DNA from: Cytobacillus gottheilii
Lineage (GTDB): Bacteria > Bacillota > Bacilli > Bacillales > Cytobacillaceae
Assembly: GCF_001636345.1 (NCBI RefSeq)
Contig: NZ_KV440945.1
Coordinates: 2,333,631-2,397,630 of the forward strand
Length of the DNA: 64,000 nucleotides
Direction of reading: 5' to 3'
The translations under genes were made by a program, and so were the position numbers. The notes beneath the pieces are model-generated. The model worked only from the letters and a program-made list of their open reading frames with translations, had not been told where the DNA came from and searched no databases. The stretch's first letter is position 1, and each line of letters starts with the position of its first letter. Shown here piece by piece: positions 4,376 through 39,808 of the stretch.

Positions 4376-6593
4376 GTTCCTTATCTTTATTTGCTCCATA
4401 CTGCTAGCTTATGGAACGAGCGGATTATTCACTGCTATATTGTATTCCAATGAATTCTTTCATAAAGACAATTATTTTCAAACCGATGAATTTCAAATGG
4501 ATTTGGGCGAGTTTGCAGCTCTACTAAATATATATGAATTAAACAATCTCACACTTGAAGAAGCAAAAGAAAATATTATGGTCTCTAAAGAAGACATAGA
4601 GGAACATCGATACAGATACGGAGAGCTGCAGGAACAAATTGATAATATTACGATGCAATATGAAGAGCGTATTCAAACGGCATTAAATTCAAATAATCAG
4701 AAGGCTGCCGATGCGTATATTGAAGAAAGAGACAATAAGATAAAAGATATCACCCAAAACTTCGAAAGCGATGAATATGTTATACCAAAGGTAAAGGCTG
4801 AAAAAGAAGCAAAACTCGAACAATTTTATCAAGAAAAAGAGAGCTTTAAGGAACATTTTACTGATTCTGCTAAAACATTTACCTATTACTTTGAAAACAC
4901 TGTTACAGGAAAAACGTATACCAATTTAGAAGCTGAAGAGACAGCGGATACTTATTTTACTAGTGAACATACATACTTTTTCACTGATTATACAATTGGT
5001 GATGTGATGTCAGACTATTATATGCTGCCGCTTGGAGAGCTGCCAAGAGAGCTAGAACAGGTTGACTACAGCGAATTCAATGGAAAAATTGCTTTAGCCC
5101 GTTCTTTGCCAGATCAAAGTCAATATATCAATGAAATGCATAAATATGAAGATTTGCAGATTCTGTTTATTTTACTGGCTGCAACAAGTCTTATTCTGCT
5201 GATTCTATCAATCGTAATAATCAAAAAATCGAAGCTTATTACCGCAGAAATTCATCAAATAAAGCACTACTATGAAAAATTCCCAATCGACACTCGTGTG
5301 ATCCTTTGTATTCTAGCTTTTATCGGTGCATTTATGTCACTGGACTTTATCCATCATAGTACTCGCTACCTATTAGATGATAGCTATTTTCTAAACGAAT
5401 TAATTGTATCCTTCTTAGGCTATTATATTTGTTTTTCACTCGCCATTATTCAATCCGTTTTTCTCTTTGGCGTGCTGACTGATCCTGCTGCGATTGCGGA
5501 TGACTGGAAAAAAGGGATCAGCTACCGGCTTCTTTCTATATGCCGCAGAGGGTTCAAGAATCTTAGGGGAAATATTAAAGGTGCCTTCTTAGAACAACCG
5601 CTGGGAACACAAGTCATGCTGCTGCTCGGAAGTATTTTCTTTACTGGTCTATGTGCTTTTACGATGATGATTCATCCTCTTTTTATCATCATATATCTTC
5701 TTCTATTAGGAATTGTATGCATACCAGCGATCATCATGTTTGTGAGGAATGTCGGTACGCTTCAGCAGCTTGCCAAAAAAACAAACGAGCTGGCACAAGG
5801 AAAGCTTGGGGAAGATTTACATATTCCTGAACAAATAGATTTGGCAAACATGGCGAAGGATTTGAATGCGCTTAGACAGATTGTAAAAGCATCGCAAAAG
5901 GAACAAGCCAAAAGTGAACGGCTAAAAACAGAGCTTATTACGAACGTTTCACATGATTTAAGAACGCCTTTAACGTCCATCATCAATTATACAGAACTGC
6001 TAAAGTCACAACAGCTATCAGACCAAGAGCGTGACTCGTATCTTGACATTATTGATCAAAAATCAAAGAGACTAAAAGGCTTAATTGAGGATTTATTCGA
6101 AGTCTCTAAGATGGCAAGCGGAAACGTCGAGCTTTCTAAAGAAAAGGGAGATTTAGTACAGCTGCTTCATCAGGCGATTGCCGAGTATGATACAGATATA
6201 CAGAATTCTAACCTCCAGTTCAGACTATCGGTCACGGAAAGCCCCGTATTTGTGCTAGTAGACGGGCAAAAAGTCTGGCGAGTTTTCGATAATTTAATAT
6301 CAAATATATTGAAATACTCTCTTGAGCATTCACGCGTTTATATATCGCTCATAGAAGAAAGTCAACAGGCTCAGATTATATTTAAAAATATCTCAAAATA
6401 TGAATTAAACGATGAAAGTGAAGAATTATTTGAGCGTTTTAAAAGAGGAGATACTTCACGGCATACGGAAGGTTCAGGATTAGGACTTGCCATTGCAAAA
6501 TCAATCATAGATTTGCATGACGGAGAATTAGTCATTGATACAGATGGTGATTTATTTAAAGTTAGCATAGTGCTTCAAAAAGTAAATATATAA
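4353..6593 (+). CDS. large multi-pass sensor histidine kinase
   Basis: A 746-residue kinase paired with the preceding regulator. Visible order: TM1 (residues 8-31), a long charged, Glu/Lys-rich extracellular domain to about 267, TM2 (269-291), four more membrane segments (about 316-335, 351-375, 420-441, 444-466), a HAMP-like linker, the phospho-acceptor His534 in NVSHDLRTPL, and an ATPase domain with the G box GSGLGLAIAKS near 706. The start is TTG behind AAAGGTGGTG, inside the regulator gene. Six membrane spans and an extracellular domain of over 200 residues are unusual for this class. It is followed after only 16 bases by a sigma-factor gene. Confidence 0.9.
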   Translation: MATKWKGKFLIFICSILLAYGTSGLFTAILYSNEFFHKDNYFQTDEFQMDLGEFAALLNIYELNNLTLEEAKENIMVSKEDIEEHRYRYGELQEQIDNITMQYEERIQTALNSNNQKAADAYIEERDNKIKDITQNFESDEYVIPKVKAEKEAKLEQFYQEKESFKEHFTDSAKTFTYYFENTVTGKTYTNLEAEETADTYFTSEHTYFFTDYTIGDVMSDYYMLPLGELPRELEQVDYSEFNGKIALARSLPDQSQYINEMHKYEDLQILFILLAATSLILLILSIVIIKKSKLITAEIHQIKHYYEKFPIDTRVILCILAFIGAFMSLDFIHHSTRYLLDDSYFLNELIVSFLGYYICFSLAIIQSVFLFGVLTDPAAIADDWKKGISYRLLSICRRGFKNLRGNIKGAFLEQPLGTQVMLLLGSIFFTGLCAFTMMIHPLFIIIYLLLLGIVCIPAIIMFVRNVGTLQQLAKKTNELAQGKLGEDLHIPEQIDLANMAKDLNALRQIVKASQKEQAKSERLKTELITNVSHDLRTPLTSIINYTELLKSQQLSDQERDSYLDIIDQKSKRLKGLIEDLFEVSKMASGNVELSKEKGDLVQLLHQAIAEYDTDIQNSNLQFRLSVTESPVFVLVDGQKVWRVFDNLISNILKYSLEHSRVYISLIEESQQAQIIFKNISKYELNDESEELFERFKRGDTSRHTEGSGLGLAIAKSIIDLHDGELVIDTDGDLFKVSIVLQKVNI

Positions 6594-8602: not shown

Positions 8603-8737
8603 ATGAAGAATGAGATAATATTATGGAGAGGCAAGAATAATGGGGATGAAATATGGTATAGAATAATTTACGGCAGTCTGGCTTTAGGCGGTTTGCTTGT
8701 CATTGCCGCCATTGTTTGTTACTTTATCATTCTATAG
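8603..8737 (+). CDS. possible single-pass micro-membrane protein (44 aa)
   Basis: A 44-codon frame begins MKNEIILWRGKNNGDEIWYR and ends in one clean hydrophobic helix (IIYGSLALGGLLVIAAIVCYF). Charge distribution and helix length suit a bitopic small protein. No good ribosome site precedes this ATG; the GGAGAGG at about 8634 precedes a different frame. It is a weak candidate. Confidence 0.3.
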   Translation: MKNEIILWRGKNNGDEIWYRIIYGSLALGGLLVIAAIVCYFIIL

Positions 8738-9022
8738 AGAGTAAGAGGGTAAACAATCAATTGTTCCTCTGATAAATATCATCAAACAATTTAAACTCAA
8801 AATATATCAACTAAATGATTTAAATAAGTTAAGCTATCGCAGCATTCTAAAATCATGGATATTCTACATATATTGTATAAAGGAGTTGTAGTGCGTTTTT
8901 CGAATACAATAATACTTCTTATGGTAGAATAAAAGACTAGCTGCAAGGCACTTCTCTTCTGAAGAGCATTTTTTATAAATATTGATTTACGAGTGCACCA
9001 GCCAGTCAAGGGAGAGATTGGT

Positions 9023-9694
9023 GTGGCACAATGGGAGATTGCGATTGATTCACTTTCTAAAATTTCAGTTTTATCAAATCCAAATAATGAACCAGTAACG
9101 ATTATCGGACAAGTAGAGGGTTTAAAGTGCATCGGAGTCGGAACAGATGCTGCCGTTTTTCAATTTTTAGATGCACCCCATTATGCATATAAGGTTTATG
9201 CAAAGGATAAAATTGATAAAGTTAAGGCAGAAGCAGGTGTTTATGAACAGATAGGAGAATCTCCATTTTTCTCTACTTATTATGGTTCTGGGGAGTTTTT
9301 CATTGTTTTAAGTTATGAAGATGGTAAAACACTATATGATTGTGTCCTCCAGGGTATTCATATCCCTAACCAAGTTGTAGAGGATGTTGAAAGTGCCAGA
9401 GATTTTGTTCGAAGTAAAGGGCTGAATCCTCGAGATATTCATTTGAAAAATATATTGCTGCAGAATGGTAGAGGAAAGATTTTAGATGTATCCGAATATA
9501 TTCAATCTGGTAATGATTTAAGATGGGAACATCTAAAAAAAGGATATGAAGAATATTATCATCTAATCGATGGAAAATCGGTTCCGTTTTGGGTCGTGGA
9601 AACTGTCCGAAAATGGTATCACCAGCAAAATAAATATTTTCCTTTCTTTGATGACTTTCTGAAATTAGTTCAAAAGCTTAATTTTATGAAATAG
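9023..9694 (+). CDS. YrzF-like serine/threonine kinase-fold protein
   Basis: A small kinase-like protein resembling Bacillus YrzF/YbdM. The nucleotide Lys lies in YAYKVYAKDK, the catalytic-loop equivalent is RDIHLKNILLQN, and the metal-binding motif reads ILDVSEY instead of DFG. It is shorter than a full Hanks kinase, so its activity and substrate are uncertain. I chose GTG at 9023 because AAGGGAGAG precedes it at good spacing; the frame is open from GTG 8993 but without such a site. Confidence 0.7.
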   Translation: MAQWEIAIDSLSKISVLSNPNNEPVTIIGQVEGLKCIGVGTDAAVFQFLDAPHYAYKVYAKDKIDKVKAEAGVYEQIGESPFFSTYYGSGEFFIVLSYEDGKTLYDCVLQGIHIPNQVVEDVESARDFVRSKGLNPRDIHLKNILLQNGRGKILDVSEYIQSGNDLRWEHLKKGYEEYYHLIDGKSVPFWVVETVRKWYHQQNKYFPFFDDFLKLVQKLNFMK

Positions 9695-18728: not shown

Positions 18729-18742
18729 AGTTACGAATTGAA

Positions 18743-18840
18743 TAAATACGGGAGCCTGTGGAATCAGGCTGAGAGTATGACTAACTGTCATAGACCGTTT
18801 GAACCTGTTGGATAATGCCAGCGTAGGAAATGTGATTAGG
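18743..18840 (+). promoter_or_regulatory. TPP riboswitch (THI element)
   Basis: The conserved aptamer pieces are present in order: GGGAGCC, the pyrimidine-sensing GGCTGAGAGT (CTGAGA at 18769-18774), an optional P3 stem (TATGAC/GTCATA), and the pyrophosphate-sensing AACCTGTTGGATAATGCCAG with GCGTAGGAAATG. It is followed by an intrinsic terminator, so TPP should end transcription before the LuxE/LuxC/ABC/SDR operon. The bases GCCAGC (18817-18822) are complementary to GCTGGC at the tip of the terminator, giving a possible antiterminator pairing. Confidence 0.95.
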
Positions 18841-18848
18841 GTATAACT

Positions 18849-32442: not shown

Positions 32443-32478
32443 TGCTGCAGTGTATGAACATACGCTGCAGTTTTTTTA
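32443..32478 (+). terminator. terminator after the EAL gene
   Basis: CTGCAGTGTATG and CATACGCTGCAG (one G-T pair) form a 12-bp stem with a two-base loop, then seven T. It insulates the following biosynthetic operon. Confidence 0.9.
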
Positions 32479-32554: not shown

Positions 32555-32569
32555 TTACTTTTTAAGTAA
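32555..32569. promoter_or_regulatory. inverted repeat before the KAS III operon
   Basis: TTACTT-TTT-AAGTAA lies 26 bases ahead of the first start codon of the operon, within the likely promoter zone. It is a candidate operator; no regulator gene is adjacent. Confidence 0.35.
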
Positions 32570-32594: not shown

Positions 32595-33584
32595 ATGGCA
32601 AGAAAAGTGAAAATAACAGGAATAGGCATCTATTTGCCTAAAAGAATTGTAACAGCTTCTGAAATTGATATGCTGATTGGTGCAGCCCCTGGCTGGAGTG
32701 AAGCGAAATCTGGTGTCAAACAGCGACATTTTATTATAGATGAAACTGCTTCATTTATGGGAGCAGAGGCGGCGAAAATGGCACTTAAACATGCAGGCAT
32801 GAGCTTGGATGATATAGATTGTATTGTAAGCGGGAGCGGCACGATGGAACAAGCAATTCCATGTAATGCCGCTCTTATTCAAAAGGAGCTGGGATTAGAA
32901 CATTCGGGTGTACCGGCTTTTGATATAAATTCTACTTGTTTAGGATTTGTAGCTGCTCTTGATGTGATCAGCTATATGATTGATGCAGGAAAATATAAAA
33001 ATGTTCTAATCATAAATTCTGAAATTTCCTCAGTTGGCTTAAACTGGCGCCAGGATGAAAGCAGTGTGCTTTTCGGTGATGGAGCAACCGCAGCCATCAT
33101 CACGAAAAGTGAGGGTTCTTCATGTATATTGACATCAAGAATGGAAACATATAGTGCGGGTGCTGCTTTTTCTGAGATTCGCGGAGGCGGAACCAAGGTA
33201 CATCCACGCCATTATAGTGAAGAGACAAAGGCAGATTATTTATTTGATATGGACGGCAAAGCTATTTTTAGAATGTCGTCAAAATTGATGAATCCCTTTA
33301 TAGAAAAGTTATTTAGCGGAACCGGGCTGGGGATGAAGGATATCAATATGGTCATCCCTCATCAGGCAAGCTGGGCAGCGATGAAGATTATCCGCAAAAA
33401 GCTGAATGTCGAAGAACCTCGTTTTATGAGTATTATTGAAAACTATGGAAATATGATTTCTGCTTCTATCCCTCTTGCCTTATATGAAGCAATAAAAGAA
33501 AAACGAATTCAAAGAGGTGATCGAATTTTGCTGCTGGGAACTTCTGCTGGTCTGAGCATTGGAGGAATGGTTCTTGAATTTTAA
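32595..33584 (+). CDS. KAS III (FabH/OleA-like) condensing enzyme
   Basis: A 329-residue thiolase-fold ketosynthase. The catalytic Cys115 lies in DINSTCLGF, His256 in VIPHQAS and Asn286 in ENYGNMISASIP, so the Cys-His-Asn triad is complete. It opens a tight six-gene operon with ATP-grasp, SDR, metallo-hydrolase, adenylate-forming and GNAT-like genes, which argues for a secondary-metabolite or special-lipid role rather than housekeeping fatty acid synthesis. Start has GAGGTG upstream. Confidence 0.9.
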   Translation: MARKVKITGIGIYLPKRIVTASEIDMLIGAAPGWSEAKSGVKQRHFIIDETASFMGAEAAKMALKHAGMSLDDIDCIVSGSGTMEQAIPCNAALIQKELGLEHSGVPAFDINSTCLGFVAALDVISYMIDAGKYKNVLIINSEISSVGLNWRQDESSVLFGDGATAAIITKSEGSSCILTSRMETYSAGAAFSEIRGGGTKVHPRHYSEETKADYLFDMDGKAIFRMSSKLMNPFIEKLFSGTGLGMKDINMVIPHQASWAAMKIIRKKLNVEEPRFMSIIENYGNMISASIPLALYEAIKEKRIQRGDRILLLGTSAGLSIGGMVLEF

Positions 33585-34716
33585 GTCTGTGCTTGTTACT
33601 GGAGCAAGGTCACCGGGTGCTCTTCATATATGCAGATTATTATATAATGCTGGTGTGAAGGTGTTTGGAGCTGATAGTGATCCTTTCTCACTTACAAAAG
33701 CTTCAAATTCGATCGAGAAATTTATCCTTCTGCCTTCAGCTAAATTTGCAACGGATTCTTATATTGATAAACTCAATGAAATGATCTGTACCTATAACAT
33801 TGACCTTATTATTCCAACCTGCGAGGAAACATTTTATTTATCTAAAAAAGCAGAACATCTTACCTGTCCTGTTTTTGCAGGGGATTTTAAGCAGTTAGAA
33901 CTTCTGCATAATAAATATACATTTATCCAACTTGCAGAAAGCTGTATCATGCCAGTTCCAAAAACTAATGAGTTATCTAAAGATGCAGTTGAAGATTATA
34001 GCAAAATGCCGAATGGTTTTATTTTAAAGCGCAAATTCACCCGTTTTTCAGATCATATAATGTATGGAGATCGAATGGAAAGCATTCCGTCAGAGTTGTT
34101 TGAGGATACTTCTGAATGGATTATACAGGAAAGACTGACAGGGGTTCAGTATTGTTCATACTCAATTGCTTTAAAGGGAGAAGTTCTCGCACATTCTGTT
34201 TATAAAGCAGAATACACAGCAGGCGAAGGGGCATCTCTCCATTTTCAGCATGTGCCTAGGCCTGACATCGAGGATTTTGTACTGAAAATAGTCAAAACAT
34301 TGCAATATTCAGGGCAAATCTCTTTTGATTTTATCGTAAATGAAAGCGATCAAGCCATCCCTATTGAATGCAATCCCCGCACTACAAGCGGTATTCATTT
34401 ATTTGGGACAGAGCTCATTGAGCACTTGCAATCCAAACATAGTGAAATGCTTTATCCAAGGAAAGAAATACATTATATGATCAGTGCTGCCATGCTCTTA
34501 TATGGTTATTCAAATATCAGAAAAACCAAAAAAACGAAAGAATGGCTTAAAATTATGTTTACCTCTCGTGATATTATTTTTAACATGAAGGATATAAAGC
34601 CTTTATTCTATCAATCTATTAGTTTAATCAATATATGGAGACAAAGCAGAAAGAATTCAGTAAGTATACTTACACAATCAACTCTCGATATTTGCTGGGA
34701 TGGTGAAGAGTTTTGA
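33574..34716 (+). CDS. ATP-grasp ligase (carbamoyl-phosphate-synthetase-like)
   Basis: The N-terminus (SVLVTGARSPGALHICRLLYNAG) is a pre-ATP-grasp Rossmann domain; HNKYTFIQLAE, FILKRKFTRFSD and the metal-binding IPIECNPRTTSGIHLF mark an ATP-grasp domain. Such enzymes join a carboxylate to an amine or other nucleophile. TTG at 33574 is chosen because GGAGGA lies eight bases before it; it overlaps the KAS III gene by 11 bases. About 380 residues. Substrates unknown. Confidence 0.82.
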   Translation: MNFKSVLVTGARSPGALHICRLLYNAGVKVFGADSDPFSLTKASNSIEKFILLPSAKFATDSYIDKLNEMICTYNIDLIIPTCEETFYLSKKAEHLTCPVFAGDFKQLELLHNKYTFIQLAESCIMPVPKTNELSKDAVEDYSKMPNGFILKRKFTRFSDHIMYGDRMESIPSELFEDTSEWIIQERLTGVQYCSYSIALKGEVLAHSVYKAEYTAGEGASLHFQHVPRPDIEDFVLKIVKTLQYSGQISFDFIVNESDQAIPIECNPRTTSGIHLFGTELIEHLQSKHSEMLYPRKEIHYMISAAMLLYGYSNIRKTKKTKEWLKIMFTSRDIIFNMKDIKPLFYQSISLINIWRQSRKNSVSILTQSTLDICWDGEEF

Positions 34717-35708
34717 AGATGGTCGTAACAGGTGCGACAGGATTTCTTGGTCAAAAGCTTGCAGTGAGATTAGCACAAATGGGACATGATGTAATCGGGC
34801 TTGGCCGAAATGAACAAGCGGGAAGAAATTTACAAAGAAGCGGCATATTGTTTAAGCAGGTAGAACTTTCGAATCGCCAGGATGTGCTTGATGCTTGTCA
34901 AAACGCAGATTATGTATTCCATTGTGGTGCGCTATCGTCACCATGGGGAAAATATGAAGACTTTTATCAAGCAAATGTCATGGGAACAAAGCATATCATT
35001 GAAGCTTGTCAAATGCATGGAATTAAACGCCTGATTCATGTCTCCACACCTAGTATCTATTTTTATTATGATGAAAGAAAGAATGTAAAAGAAGACGATG
35101 TTCTCCCGCCTACATTTGTGAATGAATATGCACAAACCAAATTTTTAGCAGAAAAAGAGGTTGATGAGGCCTTTCGGAATGGCTTACCTGTCATTACCAT
35201 CAGACCAAGAGCGATCTTTGGACCTGGAGATCAAGCGATCCTGCCACGGCTTATAAGGGTTTGCGAAAAGGGTGCACTTCCGAAAATCGGGAATGAAAAG
35301 GTAGAGGTGGACGTCACTTATGTTGAAAATGTCGTCGATGCTCTGCTTTTGTGCATGAGTTCAGGCAATCATACGCTTGGCCAAAAGTACAATATTACAA
35401 ATGGTGTTAATGTTGATTTATATGGAATAGTTGAGAAAGTAATGGACCAGCTTGGAAAGCCAGTCCGTTATAAAAAAATATCCGAAAAAACAGCATTTAC
35501 GATAGCGAAAGGGCTCGAGTTCGTTTTCAAACATTTCCTGCGCGGACGTGAACCTGTTTTAACAAGATATACGGTAAGCGTGCTTTCAAAAAGCCAGACA
35601 CTGAATATTGAGAAAGCAAAAGCAGAATTAGGGTATCAGCCTCGGGTCAGCGTTGAAGAAGGCATGCTTCATTTTACAGAATGGTGGAAAGAAAACAATG
35701 GCAATTGA
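34713..35708 (+). CDS. NAD-dependent epimerase/3-beta-HSD-type SDR (OleD-like)
   Basis: An extended SDR of 331 residues: GATGFLGQKLAVRLAQMG, DYVFHCGALSSPWGKYEDFYQANVMGT, YAQTKFLAEKEV with Tyr/Lys, and ITIRPRAIFGPGDQAILPRL. The 3-beta-hydroxysteroid-dehydrogenase subgroup includes OleD, which reduces the product of OleA; beside a KAS III this is suggestive. It starts at TTG overlapping the ATP-grasp stop (TTGA). Confidence 0.85.
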   Translation: MKMVVTGATGFLGQKLAVRLAQMGHDVIGLGRNEQAGRNLQRSGILFKQVELSNRQDVLDACQNADYVFHCGALSSPWGKYEDFYQANVMGTKHIIEACQMHGIKRLIHVSTPSIYFYYDERKNVKEDDVLPPTFVNEYAQTKFLAEKEVDEAFRNGLPVITIRPRAIFGPGDQAILPRLIRVCEKGALPKIGNEKVEVDVTYVENVVDALLLCMSSGNHTLGQKYNITNGVNVDLYGIVEKVMDQLGKPVRYKKISEKTAFTIAKGLEFVFKHFLRGREPVLTRYTVSVLSKSQTLNIEKAKAELGYQPRVSVEEGMLHFTEWWKENNGN

Positions 35709-36549
35709 ATGGGTTAAATTATACGAATGCGGTTATTGCACACATCCTGAAAAAATCGTCAATCCAAAGGGTAGTCTCAAACCTGTCAAATTTCCCGCAA
35801 CCGTAGCGCTTATTAAACATCAAACAAAAGGATATATTTTATTTGATACAGGCTATGCACAACGATTTTTGACCGAAACTGAAAAATTTCCTTATTCGAT
35901 CTACAGAAAGCTGACGCCTGTTTTTTTTACTGAAGAACAGGCGATTGTCCATCAGCTTGCCAAGGATGGAATAAAAGCAGAAGAGATAACAACGATCATC
36001 CTTTCGCATTTTCATGGAGATCATACAGCCGGATTAAAGGATTTTCCTCATGCTGAGATTGTCACCTTTCGAAAAGGATATGAAGATGTTGAGTATAACA
36101 GTAAGCTTCGAGCTTTAACGAAAGGCTGCCTGCTTGATTTACTTCCTGCAGATTTTAATAGCAGATCCCGATTTATTGATGATGAACGCCAAGTGGAGTT
36201 ATCGAACAGAGGAGATTTTCATGAAGGATATACTGTTTTCACAGATGACGACACGATCGTTGCAGTTGACTTAACTGGACATGCCATCGGTCAGTTTGGC
36301 GTATTTATAACCTTAAAAAGCGGTAAAGTTTTATTTCTATGCGCTGATGCAGTATGGAGCAGCATTGCGTATGAAAAACTAGTTTACCCGCATGTGATTG
36401 CTAATCTATTGATTGCGGATAAACGAGCGTATGTTCATCATATCCAGCGGCTGCATTCCTTAATGCATACTCATCCTGGGATTGAAATACTGCCAACACA
36501 TTGTCAGGTGACATGGAACAAAGTACAAAAAGGTGAAATCTATGAGTAA
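35698..36549 (+). CDS. MBL-fold metallo-hydrolase
   Basis: A 283-residue metallo-beta-lactamase-fold protein with the zinc motif LSHFHGDHTAGL, a later VDLTGHAIGQFGV and the metal Asp in VLFLCADAVWS, and a final TLPTH-like LPTHCQVTW. It resembles lactonase-type hydrolases. ATG 35698 has GGTGGAAAG before it; the frame upstream overlaps the SDR. It could act as a thioesterase, lactonase or esterase of the pathway. Confidence 0.85.
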   Translation: MAIEWVKLYECGYCTHPEKIVNPKGSLKPVKFPATVALIKHQTKGYILFDTGYAQRFLTETEKFPYSIYRKLTPVFFTEEQAIVHQLAKDGIKAEEITTIILSHFHGDHTAGLKDFPHAEIVTFRKGYEDVEYNSKLRALTKGCLLDLLPADFNSRSRFIDDERQVELSNRGDFHEGYTVFTDDDTIVAVDLTGHAIGQFGVFITLKSGKVLFLCADAVWSSIAYEKLVYPHVIANLLIADKRAYVHHIQRLHSLMHTHPGIEILPTHCQVTWNKVQKGEIYE

Positions 36550-37867
36550 ATGGAAAATTCTAATGCAGTACATAAAAACAAAAAGAAGAACCTTTCGTTC
36601 TAGAACCGATTTATTGGCATACCAACATAGCAAGATCAAATCTCACCTGGAATACGTCCAGCAAAATTCACCGTTTTATGCTGATTTACTGAAGCCGTAC
36701 CAAAAAGAAATAAATGAACATCGGTGGGATGAACTGCCGATTATAGATAAAACGATCATGATGGAACATTTTGATACATTTAATACGGTCAATATTCGTG
36801 CGAACGAAGCGTTTAAAGTTGCAATGGAGGCAGAAGAGACGAGAAACTTCTCACCGAAAATTCGCGATGTTTCCATCGGGTTATCCTCTGGTACTAGCGG
36901 AAACAGGGGAATATTTTTAATTTCTGATCAGGAAAGAGCGATTTGGAGTGGGACGATTCTCGCAAAATTGCTGCCTTCCTCCATTTTTAGAAAGCATACA
37001 ATCGCTTTTTTCCTAAGAGCAAACAACAATTTATATGAGGCAGCAGGAGAAGGACGAATCTCTTTTCATTTTTTTGACCTTTTGGATTCCTTAGAATCAC
37101 ATCAAAAGAGATTAAATGATTTAAAACCTTCCATTGTTGTTGGACCACCATCGATGTTAAGAATGATAGCTGACTGGCAGAAGCAAAATGAAGTGGAAAT
37201 AACTCCTCAGAAAATCATATCTGTTGCAGAAGTACTTGAAGAGATTGATCAGCGTTATATTGAAAAAGTATTTCAGCAAAAGCTTCATAATGTTTATCAA
37301 TGTACAGAAGGCTTTTTGGCAGCCACATGCAGTCATGGAACCATTCATTTCAATGAAGATCTTGTTTGTATACATAAACAGTATGTAGATAAAGAAAAAG
37401 GCATGTTCATGCCAGTCATTACCGATTTCACAAGAACATCTCAGCCGATTATTCGCTATCAGCTTAATGATTTATTAGTTGAAAAGAAAACAGCCTGTTC
37501 GTGCGGATCTCCATTTATGGCCGTTGAGCGAATAGATGGTCGCAGTGATGATCTTTTTTACGGAATTCACACAGAGAGCGGAGAGAAGCTGCCGATCTTT
37601 CCAGACTTTTTAAGAAGAGCCGTTATGACAGCACACGAGCAGATCACTGAATATAAAATGGTGCAGTCGCACTTGGATAAAATCATCATCTTGATTAAGG
37701 GTAAAGATGATCAAACGGAAATGGAGCAAGAAGTAAAGAAACATATATGGAGGTTATATGATACATTGCACCTTCATCGTCCACAGCTAATTTTCCAAAT
37801 GTATGATGAAACCCCTTCTCATATTAAGCGCAAACGAATTGAAAGCAGACTGCAAGAAAAACCATGA
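36542..37867 (+). CDS. adenylate-forming enzyme (PaaK / F390-synthetase-related)
   Basis: A 441-residue adenylate-forming enzyme of the PaaK/CoF-synthetase type. The phosphate loop is LSSGTSGNRGIFL (about residues 115-127); NVYQCTEGFLAATC and TDFTRTSQPIIRYQLND are later core motifs, and ACSCGSPFMAVERIDGR a zinc-like Cys pair segment as in PaaK. It activates a carboxylic acid, possibly to a CoA or carrier thioester. AAAGGTGA precedes the chosen ATG. It overlaps its neighbours. Confidence 0.83.
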   Translation: MSKWKILMQYIKTKRRTFRSRTDLLAYQHSKIKSHLEYVQQNSPFYADLLKPYQKEINEHRWDELPIIDKTIMMEHFDTFNTVNIRANEAFKVAMEAEETRNFSPKIRDVSIGLSSGTSGNRGIFLISDQERAIWSGTILAKLLPSSIFRKHTIAFFLRANNNLYEAAGEGRISFHFFDLLDSLESHQKRLNDLKPSIVVGPPSMLRMIADWQKQNEVEITPQKIISVAEVLEEIDQRYIEKVFQQKLHNVYQCTEGFLAATCSHGTIHFNEDLVCIHKQYVDKEKGMFMPVITDFTRTSQPIIRYQLNDLLVEKKTACSCGSPFMAVERIDGRSDDLFYGIHTESGEKLPIFPDFLRRAVMTAHEQITEYKMVQSHLDKIIILIKGKDDQTEMEQEVKKHIWRLYDTLHLHRPQLIFQMYDETPSHIKRKRIESRLQEKP

Positions 37868-39012
37868 TCGTATACCTTTATGATCAACATTCATTTGACC
37901 AGATCCCTTGGAGTGAAATCGACAATGGCGCTTACATACAGGCATATTTTGAACATCTTGTAAGAGATGGGGTTCAACAATATATTGAAAATGTGAAAAC
38001 AGATTTATATTTTATTAGAATAGATCACCTGCTTTTACCGATCACCAAAAATGATAGCCAATATGAAAATTCGTATGTATGTTCTCCTTATACACATTAT
38101 ATTTCTTATGCCAAGGAAGAGCTTTGGGAGCTAGGCAATAAGCCATTAGAATATATTTTTGAAAAAATCATCAGCCTATTAGGATTTTGTCTTCGAAAAA
38201 GCTCGTTTAATAAAGTGGTGATTGTGAACAATTGGCTGTTATCGACTAACTTATATTCTGCCCAGCTTACATCACAGCAAATGAAAGATCTAACGGCGTG
38301 TTTAACAGAAGCTTTTCCAGAGCATACCATCATGTTCCGCTCTCTTAATAATAAGCTGCATCTTTCTATGATGAGAGATTTTCGTGAAGCGGGTTATAGA
38401 AAAATCATGTCTCGTTCGATTTATTTGCTGAATGAAGACGCTGGAAGCAACTTAACAGGAAAAGAGAAAAAGTTGCTGCGGCAAGATGCCTCATTGTTTG
38501 CCAAGCATATGCTGCTGGTGGAAGAGACGCCTAGGAATATAGAAAGGTATGCATCTTGCGCTTATGAACTTTATCGTCAGCTGTATATTCAGAAATACTC
38601 CCAGCATAATCCGCAATTTAATATGAGATATTTTAACGAAATTATGAAGAAAAACTTGATGCATTTTAAATGGATTAAAAATGAGGATGTCGTAGGGGTC
38701 ATAGGCTATTTTACGGTTCATTCTGTATTGACAACACCTATTTTGGGATACAACACAAAAATAGGTAAACAACTAGGCTTATATCGAATACTTTCATATT
38801 TGATCACAAAAGAGATCCTCGATCACGGATATATCGGACACAGAAGTGCTGGTGCAAGTGAATTTAAAAGGAAACGCGGAGCAAAACAGTATATCGAATA
38901 CAATGTCATTTATCAGAAACATTTGTCCTTTAGCCGAAAATGGTCGTGGATGCTTGTAAAATGGGTGATGGACCGATTTGTGGAACCACTGGCGAAAAAA
39001 AGAAAGTTTTAA
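37864..39012 (+). CDS. GNAT/FemAB-like acyltransferase candidate
   Basis: A 382-residue protein that ends the operon. The C-terminal half looks like a GNAT/FemAB fold: WIKNEDVVGVIGYFTVHSVLTTP, then YNTKIGKQLGLYRILSYLI and a tail SAGASEFKRKRGAKQYIEYNV that recalls lysine-rich acyltransferase ends. The N-terminal half (IVYLYDQHSFDQIPW) is not recognised. It would transfer an acyl group in the pathway. The family is uncertain. Confidence 0.55.
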   Translation: MIVYLYDQHSFDQIPWSEIDNGAYIQAYFEHLVRDGVQQYIENVKTDLYFIRIDHLLLPITKNDSQYENSYVCSPYTHYISYAKEELWELGNKPLEYIFEKIISLLGFCLRKSSFNKVVIVNNWLLSTNLYSAQLTSQQMKDLTACLTEAFPEHTIMFRSLNNKLHLSMMRDFREAGYRKIMSRSIYLLNEDAGSNLTGKEKKLLRQDASLFAKHMLLVEETPRNIERYASCAYELYRQLYIQKYSQHNPQFNMRYFNEIMKKNLMHFKWIKNEDVVGVIGYFTVHSVLTTPILGYNTKIGKQLGLYRILSYLITKEILDHGYIGHRSAGASEFKRKRGAKQYIEYNVIYQKHLSFSRKWSWMLVKWVMDRFVEPLAKKRKF

Positions 39013-39045: not shown

Positions 39046-39462
39046 GGTATTCCCGAAACCAGTTCCCCGCTAGGATTTCAGGAATTAGAATAACATTGTA
39101 AATCCCGAAACCAATTCCATGCAAGGATTTCAGGAATCAGCACATCAATGTAATTCCCGAAACCAGTTCCATGCAAGGATTTCAGGAATCAAAACGTCAA
39201 TGTAATTCCCGAAACCAGTTCCATGCAAGGATTTCAGGAATCAGAACGTCAATGTAATTCCCGAAACCAGTTCCATGCAAGGATTTCAGGAATCAGAACA
39301 TCAATGTAAATCTCGAAACCAGTTCCATGCAAGGATTTCAGGAATCAGAACATCAATGTAAATCTCGAAACCAGTTCCCCGCTAGGATTTCAGGAATCAG
39401 AATAACATTGTAATTCCCGAAACCAGTCGACCGCAGGATTTGGGGGAATCAGAACACAGAGG
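39046..39462. repeat. eight tandem copies of a 52-bp hairpin repeat
   Basis: A strict 52-bp period: the core GCAAGGATTTCAGGAATC (GCTAGG or GCAGG in the outer units) recurs at 39069, 39121, 39173, 39225, 39277, 39329, 39381 and 39433. In each unit ATTCCCGAAA pairs with TTTCAGGAAT with one mismatch, giving a series of stem-loops. Outer units vary most (CCCCGCTAGG, CGACCGCAGG). There are no unique spacers, so it is not CRISPR. No frame stays open across it. It directly follows the KAS III operon. Confidence 0.92.
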
Positions 39463-39563: not shown

Positions 39564-39569
39564 AAGAAC

Positions 39570-39808
39570 TAAGCTGCATTGTACGTAATCATAATTAAGT
39601 TTTAACCTTTAAGCTGTAATAGGGAGTTTAAAATCAAAACAGGAATGACAAGCCTCTGTCTATAAGACAAGGAGGACATGCAGGATCGTTTTTGCGAACA
39701 CCCACTTTGAGAAGTGGTGGTTTAAAACTTTCTTATACTTTATTACGGCAAAGGCGGCTTTCTAATTGTAAATGGAACTCAGTTCTCAATTTGGGAACTG
39801 AGTTTTTT
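39570..39808 (+). ncRNA. predicted stand-alone structured RNA (about 240 nt)
   Basis: Between the promoter and a strong terminator no gene is encoded, but nested complementarity is seen: GCTGTAATA (39613-39621) with TATTACGGC (39741-39749), then AGTTTAAA (39625-39632) with TTTAAAACT, enclosing two hairpins, CCTC-TGTC-TATAA-GACA-AGGAGG and CCACTT-TGAG-AAGTGG. A closed multi-branch stem of this size could be a regulatory RNA, for example 6S-like or an uncharacterised class. The gene beyond is on the other strand, so it is not an obvious riboswitch. Confidence 0.5.
39776..39808 (+). terminator. terminator of the predicted RNA
   Basis: AACTCAGTTC and GAACTGAGTT form a 10-bp stem with a nine-base loop, followed by a T run. 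Confidence 0.9.

Follow-up and report, generated by a model that had tools for sequence, protein, structure and literature searches.

What is made by the six-gene operon at 32595–39012 of this DNA from Cytobacillus gottheilii? The operon lies in a 64,000-nucleotide stretch of contig NZ_KV440945.1, hereafter the window, and an initial annotation had described it as six packed biosynthetic genes overlapping at every junction. We recover the same layout, a gapless run of six same-strand open reading frames (ORFs) with overlaps of 11, 4, 11, 8, and 4 bases when the likely starts are used; an alternative start of the third gene (ATG at 34719 instead of TTG at 34713) would leave a 2-base gap at its junction. 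Our comparisons reveal that the operon is a real unit, that its ketosynthase falls in the same clade as the chain-joining enzymes MxnB and CorB, apart from FabH, and that four of its genes form a core while the other two are a separable, exchangeable head-group module. Our preferred but tentative reading, to which we give somewhat less than an even chance, is that the product would be a two-chain lipid-type secondary metabolite or specialized membrane lipid, α-branched and β-hydroxylated, with an amino-acid head. The six genes and the evidence by which each was assigned are as follows.

32595–33584, + strand: β-ketoacyl synthase III (KAS III) of the MxnB/CorB-like clade (NF005541), from family models, alignment, and tree
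33574–34716, + strand: ATP-grasp ligase (PF02655; PRK06849-like), from family models and alignment
34713–35708, + strand: extended short-chain dehydrogenase/reductase (SDR), an OleD/3β-hydroxysteroid dehydrogenase-like ketoreductase, from family models and solved relatives
35698–36549, + strand: metallo-β-lactamase (MBL)-fold hydrolase of the N-acyl homoserine lactone (AHL)-lactonase superfamily, with Trp replacing the lactonase Tyr, from family models and alignment
36542–37867, + strand: TIGR02304 F390-synthetase-related adenylate-forming enzyme (PaaK-like), from family models and solved relatives
37864–39012, + strand: GNAT-type (Acetyltransf_6/FemAB-like) transferase, from homologue rows

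G017, a C. gottheilii genome of the same genus as the window genome (G000), has all six genes arranged alike, with a TIGR02304 protein that is 91% identical. Counting the window genome each time, those with a TIGR02304 score over the cut-off number 7 among 61 relatives, 7 among 397 genomes drawn from the order, and 9 among 398 drawn from the phylum. The KAS model NF005541, at its own cut-off, picks out those 7 order genomes and no others of the 397, a coincidence with a chance of about 3e-15 if the genes were distributed at random, a figure that ignores shared descent. Among 36 genomes of the genus, five have a full-length GNAT match, and these are the five in which TIGR02304 exceeds its cut-off. 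Two further genus relatives without TIGR02304 above its cut-off hold C-terminal GNAT remnants (L074, approximately 8728–9159, in G019; L075, approximately 4949–5288, in G018), which suggests a past loss of the gene there. The six-gene order, which the initial annotation had proposed to look for in genome sets, is present in other genera as well, so the genes are not scattered in all relatives.

We scored 32 loci beyond the window (L021–L026, L033–L036, L046–L060, and L062–L068) with purpose-built models, leaving out L061, which repeats the E. coli operon of L052, and L027 and L028, in which TIGR02304 is below its cut-off. Plasmid records were hand-chosen, 16 being opened from the 51 with an F390 match and five more regions from the 12 with a GNAT match. 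Because the loci were found via the TIGR02304 protein, the counts describe the neighbors of that gene. KAS, SDR, MBL, and TIGR02304 genes stand together in 28 of the 32 loci, one inserted SDR gene being allowed in L025 and L034, and they follow the window's order in 26, with the KAS last in L048 (Fusobacterium) and L063. The contiguous core is absent from L049, L055, L067, and L068; six loci opened later have it in four cases (L090–L093) and lack it in two (L088 and L089). This core is found in Bacillota, Fusobacteriota, and Pseudomonadota. The ATP-grasp gene sits between KAS and SDR in half of the loci (16/32), and all six genes occur in the window's order and strand in 10/32, including L021 with a duplication and L025 with an insert.

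The genes beside the core differ among lineages. ATP-grasp and GNAT genes accompany it in 11 of 19 Bacillota loci and also in Paraburkholderia, Shinella zoogloeoides, Roseateles, and Rhizobium (with a Rieske protein). At L053, L058, and L092, a gene for DUF3419, presumably a BtaA-type aminocarboxypropyl transferase, is found with GNAT, DUF3419 being the companion in the Rhizobium version. Across 21 loci with GNAT clusters, ATP-grasp is present in 18 and DUF3419 in 3; because each cluster holds one or the other, the two look like alternatives for one step. A sulfotransferase and a TetR regulator lie beside the core in Ketogulonicigenium and two Paracoccus, a GT28-like glycosyltransferase in L063, PAP2, FA_hydroxylase, and FA_desaturase proteins in E. 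coli, and FA_hydroxylase in Burkholderia. Beside the core, the Fusobacterium locus (L048:4246–11189) holds genes for a GT21-family glycosyltransferase, another SDR, and a 215-aa protein with no match. The ATP-grasp/GNAT pair also occurs without the core, in the stretch read, on two Deinococcus plasmids (L088:6868–9116 and L089:6838–9095). Twenty neighbor proteins were scanned, among them PAP2, two FA_hydroxylases, FA_desaturase, DUF3419, two glycosyltransferases, and five SDRs. The first four kinds suit lipid modification, the glycosyltransferases and SDRs less specifically so, and our lipid reading is built on all of these except the SDRs. Their likenesses to NCBIfam models all lie below cut-off (OlsE 67, HpnI 49, mycolate reductase 102, and KdsR 193 bits), and the mycolate reductase and KdsR models are not even the best matches for those SDRs.

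Three of these loci have features of their own. In L056, from Paracoccus alcaliphilus, a sulfate ATP-binding cassette (ABC) transporter set lies 3′ of the core and the sulfotransferase gene faces it, an arrangement that fits a putatively sulfated product. On the large Pseudomonas plasmid L055, the core genes are scattered among hypotheticals over approximately 10 kb and the ATP-grasp gene is apparently split into two frames; on a second one, L049, only the TIGR02304 and ATP-grasp genes were found.

The KAS was initially annotated as a KAS III with a full catalytic triad, and it is one. It scores 521 bits on NF005541 (cut-off 402), and C115, H256, and N286 are kept in 24/24 KAS rows. Residues are numbered here by the first row of the alignment (for the MBL and ATP-grasp proteins, 1 has to be added for the start residue); the rows were picked by hand from the loci, with near relatives dropped and the partly duplicated ATP-grasp of G017 excluded. 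Such a Cys-His-Asn triad is common to KAS III enzymes generally, FabH included. The 24-row profile scores 335 bits on structure 4v2p, listed merely as KETOSYNTHASE, which we take to be MxnB, and 324 bits on CorB (4yuc), as compared with at most 275 on FabH chains and 116 on OleA chains (entries of 3s23). Entry 3s23 is named OleA in an excerpt of PMC5724707. The family KASs share Q-x-x-P and CLSF motifs with MxnB and CorB. A 100/100 branch divides our maximum-likelihood tree, which has 36 rows: the 24 family KASs lie on one side together with MxnB, CorB, and the KAS of L073, and nine FabH-type or other KAS rows lie on the opposite side, including the fabH of the window genome itself (L078) and a third KAS III (L086). 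The L073 protein (L073:7998–8993, genome G379) is a stand-alone KAS of the MxnB-like clade, from the one further order genome with a related KAS; it scores below the NF005541 cut-off and adjoins a presumed MMPL-type transporter gene, and no other core genes were found within the 17 kb read.

The chief rival is a FabH-like decarboxylative route, in which the KAS would lengthen one acyl-coenzyme A with malonyl-acyl carrier protein (ACP), the SDR would give a 3-hydroxyacyl chain, the MBL enzyme would release it, the TIGR02304 enzyme would activate it, and the ATP-grasp and GNAT proteins would link it to an amino acid, yielding a single-chain lipoamino acid resembling an ornithine lipid. The window KAS does score 256 bits on the general KAS III subfamily model NF006829, just over its cut-off of 249, and the E. 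coli hydroxylase is nearest to OlsE, an ornithine-lipid hydroxylase, albeit at 67 bits against a cut-off of 475. On the housekeeping fabH model TIGR00747, however, the window KAS reaches only 247 bits, under the cut-off of 292.1; a separate, normal fabH elsewhere in G000 scores 438 bits; and the tree places the KAS with the chain-joining enzymes, apart from its hosts' FabH rows. We regard this route as unlikely, even though the absence of the Glu base described below would also suit it.

OleA carries a Glu, E117, whose counterpart in PpyS is E105 and which is replaced by V94 in MxnB and CorB, according to a section of PMC4578411. The available text of PMC7064751 describes this Glu as a catalytic base given to the partner subunit, and reports Glu-Pro at the site in nearly all OleA proteins of one study. 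V94 of MxnB aligns with residue 88 of the window KAS. At this position, mapped through MxnB V94 = PpyS E105 in an alignment without OleA itself, the family KASs have Ile (15/24) or Leu (9/24), followed by an invariant Pro.

The SDR is closest to the OleD model NF042422 and scores 243 bits, far below the equivalog cut-off of 580; by this measure we take it to be OleD kin, and not an OleD member. Its S111, Y139, and K143 are invariant (23/23 rows). Among solved structures it is most like a decarboxylating sterol-4-carboxylate dehydrogenase, which makes a β-keto or β-hydroxy acid a plausible substrate. These features bear on a functional analogue of OleABCD built from non-homologous parts, in which the KAS would act as OleA, the SDR as OleD, the TIGR02304 enzyme as OleC (β-lactone closure), and the MBL enzyme as OleB (on the β-lactone), giving β-lactones or olefins. 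The roles do match one-to-one and the SDR is nearest OleD, but it scores far under the OleD cut-off, the KAS is without the OleA Glu, the MBL and OleB folds differ, and an olefin would offer no obvious handle for the head-group modules of the relatives; we consider this the least probable of the alternatives. The initial suggestion of OleA/OleD chemistry thus survives in the kinship of the SDR and in the overall logic, whereas its OleA half gives way to MxnB and CorB. Membership of the OleA/Ole families themselves is rejected on the Glu position and the OleD cut-off, and none of the six proteins matched an OleB- or OleC-type family among the family hits shown.

The MBL protein is over the PF00753 cut-off and keeps all metal ligands (HxHxDH, H194, D216, and H267) in 24/24 rows. 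Its nearest solved relatives are AHL lactonases (104 bits), with a weak match to PqsE (29 bits); its best score on the AHL-lactonase equivalog models, 85 bits against a cut-off of 390, places it outside them. Three residues after the bridging Asp, the rows have Trp in 23/24 and Tyr in 1/24, whereas lactonase rows show Tyr, a residue that has a role in AHL lactonases. Quorum quenching as an AHL lactonase is rejected on the model cut-offs and this Tyr-to-Trp change. Hydrolysis of a thioester or lactone is a plausible function for the putative hydrolase. Another alternative is a lactone or pyrone signal or antibiotic, in which the KAS would make an α-pyrone or lactone that the other enzymes open, reduce, and decorate to yield a secreted small molecule. 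MxnB and CorB form α-pyrones, as set out in parts of PMC5724707 and PMC4901931, and the MBL enzyme is a lactonase-superfamily member; no polyketide synthase (PKS) or transporter gene lies in the operon, however, and several accessory genes in relatives look lipid-modifying, making such a product quite improbable in our estimation.

The TIGR02304 protein scores 546.6 bits against a cut-off of 251.9 and so belongs to its family; its closest solved relatives are PaaK-type ligases (97 bits), and the SxGTSG loop and C-terminal Lys are invariant in 26/26 rows. The ATP-grasp protein exceeds the cut-off of PF02655 (26.6 vs 23.2 bits) and falls under that of NF005315 (367 vs 406), E264, N266, and R268 are invariant in 21/21 rows, and its distant solved matches are AMdnB (31 bits) and a chain that bears the deposited name carbamoylphosphate synthase large subunit (44 bits). 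In C. gottheilii G017, its gene is partly duplicated in tandem (L021:5086–7184), with a 265-residue copy (1–265) before a nearly whole one (12–380). Family models bear out the initial ATP-grasp, SDR, MBL, and adenylating-enzyme classes. The GNAT/FemAB-like label comes from the homologues alone, which under a permissive E limit of 5 match Acetyltransf_6 in 7/17 rows (best 1.8e-9) and FemAB_like in 4/17 (best 1.5e-4); the window protein on its own gave no convincing match in Pfam and other family scans. Together, these enzyme classes support the initial view of a dedicated operon whose enzymes could take an acyl chain through condensation, reduction, activation, and coupling.

From the observed gene content, order, conservation, co-occurrence, catalytic residues, KAS clade, and module exchange, we infer a route whose reactions, sequence, and product would be as follows. 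The KAS would load an acyl chain from ACP or coenzyme A (CoA) onto C115 and, like MxnB and CorB, join it head-to-head to a second acyl thioester, probably a β-ketoacyl one. The SDR would then reduce the new β-ketone to an α-branched β-hydroxyacyl product, the MBL enzyme would free the hydroxy acid by hydrolyzing its thioester, or a lactone that had closed spontaneously, and the TIGR02304 enzyme would adenylate this acid for transfer. In the window's version, the ATP-grasp ligase may supply a head of the amino-acid type through an amide bond; the GNAT protein may acylate, or transfer to, the amine of that head. The first four steps would be the work of the conserved core; the fifth would be the exchangeable head, supplied elsewhere by DUF3419, sulfotransferase, glycosyltransferase, or lipid-modifying genes. 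The chain-joining precedent comes from MxnB and CorB, which join two carrier-bound β-ketoacyl chains, with a second substrate tunnel in MxnB, as stated in portions of PMC5724707 and PMC4901931.

Several observations weigh against this two-chain lipid proposal. No gene for an ACP, CoA ligase, or transporter was found inside the operon. The KAS tree was built without OleA and PpyS rows, its two outgroup rows form very long branches, and MxnB and CorB are nested inside the family at weakly supported forks (82–91% bootstrap). Because the triad serves FabH too, and because a published tree, as given in the part of PMC4578411 that covers it, placed MxnB and CorB within the FabH clade, kinship with them is no proof of non-decarboxylative chemistry. 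With no Glu base, a plain acyl chain would not be deprotonated in the way of OleA, and a β-ketoacyl partner must therefore be assumed. For the head, five Bacillota loci have ATP-grasp without GNAT beside the core (L036, L047, L062 at a contig end, L064, and L065), the predicted structure of the GNAT protein, from a two-sequence alignment, has a mean predicted local distance difference test (pLDDT) score of 37, and the GNAT protein has only two doubtful matches among solved structures. The lipid reading of the accessory genes is also selective, since the 20 neighbors include three familyless, two housekeeping (CvfB-like; RNase PH/Ham1), and two Rieske proteins.

A broader claim, that the four-gene core defines an undescribed, phylum-crossing class of two-chain lipids, in which an α-branched β-hydroxy acyl scaffold is made by non-PKS, MxnB-like head-to-head condensation and fitted with heads that differ among lineages (an amino acid through ATP-grasp or DUF3419 together with GNAT, or sulfate, or sugar), is one that we hold more doubtfully. 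An E. coli version of seven genes, comprising the core with PAP2, sterol-desaturase-family, and acyl-CoA-desaturase genes, is found by megablast in 672 of 5426 complete genomes (approximately one in eight), and in 671 of these the match covers 80% or more of its length; the copy in Nissle 1917, a probiotic strain, is flanked by narI and by tyrosine tRNA genes. If the claim is true, Nissle 1917 carries one unnoticed member of the class, an entire class of lipid-like metabolites has been overlooked although tractable hosts carry its genes, and ketosynthases of the MxnB/CorB type gain a much wider natural role. The unnamed operon would also become amenable to a direct test by gene deletion and lipidomics. 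The initial annotation could name no known product, and we likewise found neither the operon, its product, nor a matching characterized pathway described among open-license PubMed Central (PMC) papers (main texts, among the matches listed). The enzyme superfamilies are all known ones; within the literature covered, it is their combination, its spread, and the exchangeable heads that appear to be undescribed.

The immediate surroundings of the operon add a possible regulatory site. An EAL-domain gene lies upstream, followed by a terminator-like hairpin (32444–32471) and then by the following element.

32555–32569, no strand: 6-3-6 palindrome (TTACTT/AAGTAA) ahead of the KAS gene, a candidate operator by inference

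This palindrome is the sole match to TTACTTNNNAAGTAA within the window, and the stretch that holds it, between the EAL gene and the operon, is identical in G017. A promoter scan gave no signal (27 sites vs 28.2 expected). Within the limits used, both the EAL and citrate synthase neighbors are present in only G000 and G017 of 37 genomes, so an empty site is unavailable for comparison. Composition gives no sign of a recent foreign origin (GC 0.383 in the operon vs 0.386 in the window). Just 3′ of the operon is a 52-base tandem repeat of 7.3 copies with 91% matches (39049–39427), at a site that is approximately 210 bases shorter in G017, and then a 6S RNA gene (RF00013, 67.9 bits; 39568–39764) that is nearly identical there; a thiamine pyrophosphate (TPP) riboswitch (RF00059) lies at 18738–18846. 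Two other readings were rejected. An anti-phage defense role is set aside by 0 PADLOC matches for all six proteins (E 1e-5), and a phage origin by GNAT and TIGR02304 alignments that have no relative in viral contigs. Ten phage records hold an unannotated KAS, 26–30% identical, which we provisionally take for ordinary FabH.

Finally, we compared the operon with known systems. It shares with MxnB and CorB, of myxopyronin and corallopyronin synthesis, the KAS fold, the triad, both motifs, a hydrophobic residue at the Glu site, and the side of the branch; those enzymes, however, join PKS-made chains, whereas this operon is PKS-free and follows its KAS with an SDR, an MBL enzyme, and an adenylating enzyme. 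With OleABCD it shares a condense-reduce-activate logic and an SDR nearest OleD, but in place of OleB and OleC it has the MBL and PaaK-like enzymes, with ATP-grasp and GNAT proteins in addition and the OleA Glu missing. AHL lactonases and PqsE have the same MBL fold and full metal ligands, and the Pseudomonas quinolone signal (PQS) pathway also pairs a KAS III with an MBL thioesterase; the Trp in place of the lactonase Tyr and the low PqsE score set the present enzyme apart. OlsB and OlsE, and BtaA, serve in ornithine- and betaine-type lipid synthesis, and those pathways resemble the operon in having a GNAT-type transferase; the E. coli version also has a hydroxylase resembling OlsE, and that of Rhizobium has DUF3419. 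They differ in that here a ketosynthase-reductase core comes first, and the GNAT homologues match Acetyltransf_6 and FemAB_like.

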